Source: Daejeonella oryzae DSM 19973 (GTDB lineage: Bacteria > Bacteroidota > Bacteroidia > Sphingobacteriales > Sphingobacteriaceae). Taken from it: a stretch of DNA of 64,000 nt. The DNA lies in the NCBI RefSeq assembly GCF_000422945.1, contig NZ_KE383964.1:535650-599649 (forward strand), in the 5' to 3' direction. Below, piece after piece: positions 36,245 through 38,823 of this stretch. The translations under genes and the position numbers were made by a program. The stretch's first letter is position 1, and each line of letters starts with the position of its first letter. The notes under the pieces were generated by a model that worked only from the letters and a program-made list of their open reading frames with translations, searched no databases and was not told the origin of the DNA.

Positions 36245-36946
36245 TCAACGCAACAGTTCATCAATGCGTTTAAAACTATAGCCTCTTCTTTTTAAATCGG
36301 GAATCAGCTCATTTAATTGCTCATAAAATTTATCAGTACGTCTCGGATCTGTTCCCAGATGGATCAGTAATATAAATCCATTCAATCCATTTGCCGATGA
36401 ATTTTCATAGTTCATGATTGATTTATAAATTTCATTGCTGCTCAGGTATTTATTGCCCATTTCCGGCCAGGTATAATCGGCCGCTGATCGGGTTCCCGCA
36501 CTAAAATTTATAAGTGTCAAACCCGCTTGTTCAGTCCAGCTGCTTATAGATTTATTATACCACTCATACGGAGGTAGAAAATAGGGTGCATCTTTCTTCC
36601 GGATACCCAAACGGACCAGTTCTAAATAGTTATTTTCTAGATCCTCAAAAAACTGATTTTTATTTACCAGCAAGCTATCGCGATAAGTCCAGTCGCAATA
36701 CAGTAAATGTTTGTCTGAATGGGCTCCGATGTAATTCCCATTCCGTTTTACTGTTTTTATTAAGTTGCTGAATTGAGGATCTCTTAAGAAATCTCCTGTG
36801 AAGAAAAAAGAAGCTTTAACATTTTCTTTTTTAAGTGTTTTGCTTACACTTTCACCGCCATCAGCAAATTCATGGGCGGTAAAAACTATGGCTATTTCTT
36901 TTTTAGTGATATCGCCACGATTAATTGCTCCATATGTATCAATTAC
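36245..36946 (-). CDS. Polysaccharide deacetylase (NodB-like) domain, no start codon of its own; probable -1 extension of the GH9 protein
   Basis: In this frame 233 residues can be read from the GTA codon at 36946: VIDTYGAINRGDITKKEIAI, VFTAHEFADGG (in place of the TxDDG metal motif), SFFFTGDFLRD, YIGAHSDKHLLYCDW with the metal-binding HSxxH, then YFLPPYEWYN and LINFSAGTRS. It is recognisably a NodB-type deacetylase of the kind found in Bacteroidota. There is no ATG or GTG in frame before the catalytic core: a TTG at 36673 would remove motifs 1 and 2. It directly follows, in the -1 frame, the stop of the GH9 gene, and has no signal peptide. Either it is translated by a -1 frameshift from GH9 or it is a gene broken by an indel. 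HEFADGG differs from the typical Asp pair, so zinc binding is uncertain. Confidence 0.7.
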   Translation of the reverse strand, partial: VIDTYGAINRGDITKKEIAIVFTAHEFADGGESVSKTLKKENVKASFFFTGDFLRDPQFSNLIKTVKRNGNYIGAHSDKHLLYCDWTYRDSLLVNKNQFFEDLENNYLELVRLGIRKKDAPYFLPPYEWYNKSISSWTEQAGLTLINFSAGTRSAADYTWPEMGNKYLSSNEIYKSIMNYENSSANGLNGFILLIHLGTDPRRTDKFYEQLNELIPDLKRRGYSFKRIDELLR

Positions 36947-36968
36947 TTTTTTGCGGCATCTTCCTCCC
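36943..36968 (-). promoter_or_regulatory. Candidate -1 frameshift site (A AAA AAG, stop, upstream SD-like element)
   Basis: On the minus strand, GCA AAA AAG TAA (36954-36943) ends the GH9 frame and contains the heptamer A AAA AAG (36952-36946), the slippery sequence of dnaX. A -1 slip gives AAA AAA GTA ATT, which enters the deacetylase frame directly. GGGAGG at 36968-36963 lies 10 nt before the heptamer, the position of the stimulatory Shine-Dalgarno-like sequence in dnaX. Whether Bacteroidota ribosomes respond to it is unknown, since they make little use of Shine-Dalgarno pairing. Confidence 0.55.
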
Positions 36969-38766
36969 GGGATGCGTTTTCTTTAGAAGCGAGAAGATAA
37001 ATTAAAGAAGCCGTACCATCCATTGTAGGTTCATTCGTACTATAATCTCCATAATCATCGTGGTAAACAACCAACGGCGACTGGAATTGGGCGTATTCAT
37101 CAGCATCATTTAATTTTATCCCAATGAGATTATTGAAAATTGATCCATAAACTGGTCCATCTACCAAACCTCCATCAATCGGGTAGTTTTTTAAATGTGT
37201 AAAGGCAGAATGCGGGTCAATTGGAGTATCTCCATTTGCCGGAAGTCCGTAAACCATGCTGGTTCCCCAGGGATTACAACCAAAAAGCCAGTCTATATTT
37301 GCCTGTTCCAGTTCCTCATAACTTCGGTCATTGGTAGAGCTTCGGTACAGGTAGCACTGAATTGCAAAAGATGTTGTTAAGTTATTGGAACACCAGATAT
37401 AAGGTATTCCGCGATAAAATGCATTGTTTTTTGCTTTTGCCCAAACCTTCTCTATTCCGGTTTTATAACTAGCCATCAACTCATTTTTTATTTCTGAACG
37501 TCCGGATTTTGCCAATTCATAATGCCCGAAATTATGGAATGGGTACCATTGATAATGTTTAGCTGTATCAGCACCCATCCATGGCGTAACAGGTTCTGAT
37601 CTGGCATAATTAAGAGCTGTATCAATTAAATTACCATATATATCTGAAATTAATTTATGCTTCGCAGGGGAGTTTTCTATGGATGCCAATGCGAGTTCCA
37701 TATCATCAACCCAGTTATCTTCCGCATATATGTATGGAGATTTAACCGAAGCCGTTTGTGTAACACCCTTTTTCTTTAATGCATATTTATAGGCCGTTAA
37801 AGATTTAATGCTTAATGTTTCCTCAAAAGTTTTATCAATGGATGAATAAATTTTAGATCCCAAAGCAAAGGCACTTGCGAATTTAGCGGCGGTAGAACTG
37901 GTTCCGGTAGTATTATTCATGAACTTTCCGCGTTGCTGAGGTTCGCCTGTAATAAAATACAATGGTCTTTCAAAACCTTTCCCATACTGATTATCTTCTT
38001 TGGGAATTCGCATAGAAATATGGTCACGGTCATCGGCAATCTGGTTAAACATCCAGTTTTCTTTGGGATGCATTTTAAGCAGCCAGTCCAATCCCCATTT
38101 AGCCTCATCCAGAACATCGGCCAATCCATTTTTACCATCCAAACCGTTTGCTTGCTTTTCATCGCTGAATATTTTTGGGAAATCGCGGTAAGCTGCAAGT
38201 AAATGATAGGTTGCATTGGCAGAGGTGCTGGAATATTGCAAATAATCACTTGCATCATGCCAGCCTCCTGATGCATCAATAAAAGTGCTGTCTTTAAGTC
38301 CAGCTTTTGATCCGTAAATTACAAAGCCATCATTGGTATGACAACTATCTTTTAAATACGGATTGAACCCGCTACGTTGCTGCCGCATATACCGGAGAGC
38401 AAAATCCGCAGAACCTTTATACACATCAGAACCTATTTTAAACCTGGGTGATTTTATTTTTCCTGCCTGAATGTAGTATTCTCCTGCCAACTTTAATTTG
38501 GAAAAGGATAATCTGAAGGATGATTTAAAAGGGCCGTACTCGCCAAAATTTGTTCCCGCCTTTCCTTTAAAAATAATTTTATTGGTTGTTGCATCAATAA
38601 CCTCAAAACGTTTTATACTTGTTATTTCTTTTGAAACCCAAATTGCAGTTTTTACTCCTGATGGTAAATAACCAAGCTGGTTAATTCTAATCCATGAATT
38701 TTGTCCTGAAGGTTTAAAAGAAAATAAAACAGGAAGTAGTAAAAGTGAATAAAGTAACTTTTTCAT
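36943..38766 (-). CDS. Glycoside hydrolase family 9 (endoglucanase-like)
   Basis: A 607-residue secreted glycosidase. Start at 38766 (MKKLLYSLLLLPVLFSF signal peptide); an ATG 12 bp upstream is possible. A CelD_N immunoglobulin-like domain covers residues ~25-105 (IRINQLGYLPSG), then the (alpha/alpha)6 barrel: GGWHDASDYLQY holds the Asp pair of the base/nucleophile water site, and YSTNEPTMDGTASLIYLLA near the C-terminus has the catalytic Glu. The family hydrolyses beta-1,4-glucans or related polymers by inversion. Its last codons, GCA AAA AAG TAA, form a slippery site leading to a polysaccharide deacetylase domain in the -1 frame, so the complete product may be a ~840-residue two-domain enzyme. 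Confidence 0.92.
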   Translation of the reverse strand: MKKLLYSLLLLPVLFSFKPSGQNSWIRINQLGYLPSGVKTAIWVSKEITSIKRFEVIDATTNKIIFKGKAGTNFGEYGPFKSSFRLSFSKLKLAGEYYIQAGKIKSPRFKIGSDVYKGSADFALRYMRQQRSGFNPYLKDSCHTNDGFVIYGSKAGLKDSTFIDASGGWHDASDYLQYSSTSANATYHLLAAYRDFPKIFSDEKQANGLDGKNGLADVLDEAKWGLDWLLKMHPKENWMFNQIADDRDHISMRIPKEDNQYGKGFERPLYFITGEPQQRGKFMNNTTGTSSTAAKFASAFALGSKIYSSIDKTFEETLSIKSLTAYKYALKKKGVTQTASVKSPYIYAEDNWVDDMELALASIENSPAKHKLISDIYGNLIDTALNYARSEPVTPWMGADTAKHYQWYPFHNFGHYELAKSGRSEIKNELMASYKTGIEKVWAKAKNNAFYRGIPYIWCSNNLTTSFAIQCYLYRSSTNDRSYEELEQANIDWLFGCNPWGTSMVYGLPANGDTPIDPHSAFTHLKNYPIDGGLVDGPVYGSIFNNLIGIKLNDADEYAQFQSPLVVYHDDYGDYSTNEPTMDGTASLIYLLASKENASREEDAAKK

Positions 38767-38823
38767 TGCTCTAACCATAATATGCTAAAGTAAACTTTCT
38801 TTGATTACATTTATAAAAAAGCC

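Follow-up and report, generated by a model that had tools for sequence, protein, structure and literature searches.

Among ordinary bacterial genes, prfB and dnaX are the textbook cases of frameshifting. In E. coli dnaX, a Shine-Dalgarno (SD)-like element lies about 10 nt upstream of the slippery heptamer, and the product is a polymerase subunit. Other systems are close to the junction analysed here in single respects. Two-ORF dnaX genes also require a shift for their longer product, and Antonov et al. (2013, PMC3711429), in a survey listing 146 candidate frameshift clusters, report ten A's in 9 of 17 such genes and attribute these to transcriptional slippage. The prfB gene of Bacteroidia is described as responding to SD-like pairing during elongation despite a hidden anti-SD, but its shift is +1, at CUU UGA, with the SD 3 nt away and a role in RF2 autoregulation (PMC8710568). 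The alpha-L-fucosidase of S. solfataricus is a glycosidase made with a -1 frameshift; it is archaeal, and its shift restores a single enzyme and adds no second domain (PMC8037382). Here we describe a junction in Daejeonella oryzae DSM 19973, a member of the Sphingobacteriaceae in class Bacteroidia, between a secreted glycosidase and a deacetylase that shares features with each of these systems and matches none of them fully.

The window, by which we mean the whole 64,000-nt stretch analysed, carries the junction on its minus strand. A GH9 glycosidase with a CelD_N domain occupies frame 0 (36943..38778; the start is either 38778 or 38766, MKKLLYS...) and ends GCC GCA AAA AAG TAA. Its last codons contain the heptamer A AAA AAG (36946..36952), in phase with the GH9 frame and followed immediately 3' by the frame-0 stop, TAA (36943..36945). 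GGGAGG, complementary to the 3' tail of the organism's own 16S rRNA, stands upstream (36963..36968, minus strand), its GGAGG separated from the heptamer by 10 nt. A slip of -1 leads, from GTA at 36946 to a stop ending at 36245, into 233 residues of a CE4/NodB polysaccharide deacetylase (36245..36946 with the stop), as judged from translation, Pfam and a structure model. The last in-frame stop of that frame 5' of the heptamer is a TAA at 36983..36985, which confines entry to 40 nt. The frame opens at 36982, has no ATG, GTG or TTG as far as 15 codons into the match, and has an internal TTG at 36673 as its earliest listed start. Pfam matches in the window are Glyco_hydro_9 (7.2e-66), CelD_N (2.7e-21) and Polysacc_deac_1 (5.4e-11). 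An earlier note on this DNA had described the same GH9 ending with its heptamer, the slip into a NodB-like frame with an HSxxH motif, the lack of a usable start or signal peptide in that frame, and the purine-rich element at 10 nt; sequence, translation, Pfam match and positions (36968..36963 against 36952..36946) agree with it throughout.

We searched for the deacetylase in the organism's own genome (one copy), in 100 relatives (28 with a match), on contigs of named genomes (80 of 89 loci retained), in the family at 1e-40 (143 of 399 genomes matched) and in the class (19 of 395). The resulting 236 loci were reduced to 225 with a deacetylase match at 1e-10 and, after identical copies had been removed, to 207 distinct loci, window included. 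These comprise 109 in-frame fusions, 73 loci in a -1 arrangement, 10 in a +1 arrangement and 15 without an adjacent GH9 found. Four loci were dropped from the -1 set, leaving 69: two are broken inside the deacetylase (L017, in two pieces in one genome, and L087, with an interrupted frame), and two have their own start (L084, which is signal-like, and L088, whose ATG overlaps the GH9 stop and whose N-terminus falls below the hydrophobicity cut). L084, from a Cytophagales MAG, carries an in-phase T_TTA_AAC, which lies 16 nt ahead of the last base of the GH9 stop. The frames of L087 and L093 (Niabella hibiscisoli and N. defluvii) are broken within the domain through either decay or assembly error. 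We considered the +1 loci (Algoriphagus, Arenibacter and others) as a second type of recoding and rejected them, since nine are overlapping but separate genes, each beginning at a start of its own with a signal-like N-terminus, and the tenth is the broken L093. Thirteen loci from the class search (L268-L280) were looked at outside the 69, and L017, L018, L087 and L093 were left out of the tree.

A slip site lies in the frame overlap of all 69 analysed -1 loci, which is more than chance would give. In 52 of them it is an in-phase A_AAA_AAG (A6 in 50, A7 in two), and in the other 17 a run of nine or ten A's. The in-phase heptamer otherwise occurs 8 times in the 29,076 codons that make up the GH9 bodies of these 52 loci. 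In 49 of them the heptamer is directly followed by the frame-0 stop, which across the class is TAA in 30, TAG in 22 and never TGA. The first A of the heptamer is contributed by GGA, CCA, GCA, GTA, AGA, GAA or ATA, such that the third base is constant and the amino acid varies; in L004 and L211 a stop in the deacetylase frame stands immediately 5' of the heptamer. The class includes Pontibacter, Pedobacter, Daejeonella, Arcticibacter and Olivibacter among named relatives, and the frameshift junction was found in dozens of species of one family plus two Pontibacter. The 52 loci form 18 clusters at 70% deacetylase identity, with identities within the class of 40 to 99%, so the class is not one recent copy.

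These data bear on the simplest alternative, that a sequencing error or recent indel in the A6 run hides a plain fusion gene. The earlier note had raised this possibility and had proposed aligning relatives; in that alignment the 52 loci, in 18 clusters, retain the heptamer, the stop next to it and the purine-rich element, contradicting such an origin. Plain in-frame fusions do make up 109 of the 207 loci, as an error that hides a fusion might lead one to expect, but an identical -1 break with an identical signal recurs in 69 loci from several genera and many assemblies, and the ten +1 loci resolve into nine with their own signal-like start and one broken within the deacetylase. Given conservation over 18 clusters and at identities down to 40%, error or recent indel is ruled out as the general cause, and error or decay appears very unlikely for the window. 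Two-product output would be common without being universal: -1 junctions are frequent, each analysed one with its slip site, and plain fusions outnumber them. Two products are thus not needed everywhere.

Upstream of the heptamer, predicted pairing with the anti-SD is present in 52 of 52 loci, at -7.6 to -11.2 kcal/mol. Pairing at -7.6 kcal/mol or better occurs in 3.7% of random GH9 windows and in 7.6% of fusion-linker windows of the same size; when whole linkers of plain fusions are scanned, 21 of 109 reach this level. The spacing from GGAGG to the heptamer is 10 nt in 40 loci, 13 nt in five and 9 nt in one, and the remaining six carry GGGAG or AGGAG. The 13-nt cases (L006, L007, L038, L044 and L123) are Pedobacter-like, and their GGAGG lies within an AAKEA-coding stretch and may be incidental. 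Codon choice follows the element: the Glu codon four upstream of the heptamer is GAG in 43 of 43 cases, against a preference for GAA of 657:450 in gene bodies, and the preceding codon ends in G in 50 of the 52 loci. Across the organism's own genome, GGAGG plus heptamer occurs at chance level (8 sites, 9 in the control), and only the site in the window combines the right phase, a position closing a long ORF and a long -1 continuation. At L342, one of the other seven, GGAGG and an in-phase heptamer fall inside a frame of 168 codons, and the -1 frame is short.

Our data suggest that a programmed -1 ribosomal frameshift at the heptamer makes both GH9 alone and a secreted GH9-deacetylase fusion, a reading to which we give a probability of roughly 0.86. 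Most ribosomes would end GH9 at the stop just past AAA AAG. Some would move back one base on A_AAA_AAG, where tRNA-Lys (UUU) can re-pair, assisted by base pairing between GGAGG and the 16S tail, and would continue to yield the secreted fusion. The earlier note had proposed these two products from the window, and conservation of the signal in 52 loci and 18 clusters favours its proposal. The sequences themselves show the anatomy, its conservation, the absence of a usual start or signal peptide for the deacetylase, and purifying selection on that domain; slippage itself, its ribosomal nature in the heptamer class, its rate and the function of both products are inferences.

A different account of the same junction is that a fusion gene lost its frame and is simply rescued by a natural slip site, the two products being made without benefit. 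We consider this unlikely. In its favour, locus classes are gained and lost frequently. There are 16 changes among three classes on a tree of GH9 plus deacetylase, of which the heptamer class alone needs 10, and 28 among four classes on the deacetylase tree. Among the plain fusions, L037 and L130, both with A7, fall in a group with L007, which is frameshifted and has A6; L201, with A11, has L207 (A10) as its sister; and L113 retains GGGAGG together with A11. Deacetylase evolution is also faster in heptamer-class loci than in fusions: median dN/dS is 0.126 for the deacetylase and 0.033 for the more constrained GH9 in the former (72 pairs, not independent), and 0.077 and 0.057 in the latter (56 pairs, likewise not independent). 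A tolerated loss of frame would not lead one to expect an upstream element held at one spacing in 40 of 52 loci, or GAG in 43 of 43, across 18 clusters. Moreover, the end of the unshifted GH9 roughly coincides, as judged by eye, with that of stand-alone GH9 proteins in Algoriphagus and others. The dN/dS values (the A10 class gave only three usable pairs) place the deacetylase under purifying selection, and its frame is thus probably translated.

Programmed frameshifting would deliver the deacetylase behind the GH9 signal sequence, and the N-termini are consistent with this: 50 of 51 loci with a complete 5' end have a hydrophobic GH9 N-terminus, and a signal-like start (ATG, GTG or TTG with a hydrophobic N-terminus) is present in the deacetylase frame of none of the 52 heptamer loci and none of the 17 long-run loci. 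Stand-alone short deacetylase frames have one in 20 of 22 cases. This figure derives from a separate class of 25 loci (14 without an adjacent GH9 found; 23 of 25 with a signal-like start) after removal of L011, L064 and L065, whose long open frames may be other fusions. Alternatively, the deacetylase could be translated on its own by re-initiation or from an internal start, with GGAGG serving as a ribosome-binding site; an ATG, GTG or TTG occurs in frame at 18 of the 52 heptamer loci, rare starts uncounted. This is highly improbable. The other 34, including the window, have none as far as 15 codons into the match, no locus of the class has a start that is signal-like, and in 40 loci GGAGG plus 10 nt leads to AAAAAAG and to no start codon.

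The long-run class appears to have reached the same two products by another route. Exactly ten A's are present in 16 of its 17 loci, in all three codon phases. A10 takes the place of SD and heptamer at L015, L071, L103, L106, L188, L190, L191, L195, L197, L198, L203, L205, L207, L219, L234 and L235, and also at the junction of L280, a locus of another family from the class search. The remaining coding bases of these loci, 511,647 in total, contain no A10 run, although A9 occurs five times and A11 twice. Upstream anti-SD pairing in 16 of the 17 is weaker than in every heptamer locus (the exception, L111 with A9, pairs strongly), which suggests that this class uses transcriptional slippage; by adding or dropping A's, RNA polymerase would produce some mRNAs in which the fusion is in frame. 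Ribosomal slippage on A_AAA_AAA may also occur at A10 loci. The dnaX genes we scanned are similar, with exactly A10 in at least 17 of 21 loci (L313 from the organism's own genome and L314-L333 from 20 relatives), a lower bound since the scan covered only part of some loci; L325 has A9. In most A10 dnaX loci the -1 frame stops a few codons later; L330 and L333 have a frame-0 stop and a -1 frame that stays open for more than 200 codons. SD plus heptamer is not the dnaX pattern in these 21 loci. With A10 common to the junction and dnaX, two devices known from dnaX appear at one junction in related species.

Could RNA polymerase slippage also explain the window? The regularity of A10 at junctions and in dnaX lends the mechanism weight in the second class, but in the window it is improbable. 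The run there is A6, short of the homopolymer of about eight or more expected for transcriptional realignment, a length reached only in the 17 long-run loci. A further 49 heptamer loci have A6 and two have A7, all in a single codon phase and with the SD-like element; both run length and phase suit ribosomal slippage.

The two-ORF dnaX genes share with the junction the need for a shift to make the longer product, and their ten A's recall our A10 class, but the gene is different and the window has A6 with an SD. The resemblance to E. coli dnaX, which the earlier note had stressed, holds for the heptamer A_AAA_AAG and for the SD-like element described in PMC5600365, as well as for a single tRNA-Lys. 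Downstream, we found no conserved 3' stem-loop over the 52 heptamer loci. The 53 nt 3' of the heptamer have a mean folding z of -0.8, with 9 of 52 loci below -2, compared with -0.2 and 4 of 109 in fusions, an excess that is weak at most. No structure came out of consensus folding of these loci, nor out of shuffled alignments, so this analysis has low power; the fold downstream of the heptamer in the window reaches only -6.1 kcal/mol. Given the weak z excess and low-power consensus fold, we do not class the junction as an E. coli dnaX-type cassette. Unlike in that gene, the shift here would yield the longer product, with the stop in frame 0, and the protein is a secreted enzyme.

Both domains have recognizable folds. 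The upstream part is a predicted secreted GH9 glycosidase, its catalytic domain assigned by the Pfam match, and the nearest solved endoglucanase is 3x17 (4.8e-29), with BoGH9A 6dht matching at 1.6e-17. The deacetylase model is a confident CE4 fold (pLDDT 96.8). Its PDB matches are, in order, a peptidoglycan deacetylase, an acetylxylan esterase and a CE4 pseudoenzyme (BA3943); with a pseudoenzyme among the top matches, the fold is sure and activity is only predicted. HSxxH is present in all 203 of 203 deacetylases. Motif 1 (residue 26; domain 36248-36949, minus strand) reads TAHEF in the window, TGHDL in 25 of 52 heptamer loci, and TGDEF in 14 of 17 long-run loci and 38 of 109 fusions. We take this position to be that of the usual catalytic Asp; it is His in many members, and activity may therefore differ among them.

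Some features of the host's translation machinery favour the proposed mechanism. The organism's own 16S 3' tail is ACCTCCTTTCT and keeps CCTCC. ARAGORN assigned a type to 34 of 37 tRNA hits, among which the sole tRNA-Lys is UUU; three are untyped, one of them Phe by eye. A purine-rich element precedes the prfB CTTTGA site in 19 of 21 genomes, and the organism's own prfB (L304) has GAGGAGG before the +1 site. Earlier work speaks in part against it: Bacteroidia ribosomes are reported to hide the anti-SD, with the prfB element often retained nonetheless (PMC8710568), hiding is tied to bS21, bS18 and bS6 (PMC9976891), and prfB frameshifting is reported to be low in F. johnsoniae (PMC12421855).

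GH9-deacetylase is most likely a new gene for a known mechanism, with an SD element that is puzzling in its lineage. A literature search found no report of frameshifting in such a gene, although it may be listed in the cluster tables that supplement PMC3711429 and PMC4066793. The part most likely new is a cellular gene for a secreted enzyme that has a conserved -1 frameshift and an SD-like element, in a class that hides its anti-SD. Across the sampled loci, some lineages appear to have an A10 run or a plain fusion in place of the heptamer and SD device. One could envision that elongating Bacteroidia ribosomes free the hidden anti-SD and so drive -1 frameshifting on a cellular mRNA. Since the hiding is bS21-dependent, the balance between free GH9 and the fusion would then track ribosome composition, and ribosomes without bS21 would make more fusion; we regard this extension as doubtful.

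The junction provides a second natural test, besides prfB, of how anti-SD-hiding ribosomes can still answer an SD-like element in elongation. Related species have this junction as SD plus heptamer, as A10, as a plain fusion or as separate genes, which amounts to a natural experiment on keeping two products. Annotation may split a real fusion protein in two or flag it as broken.
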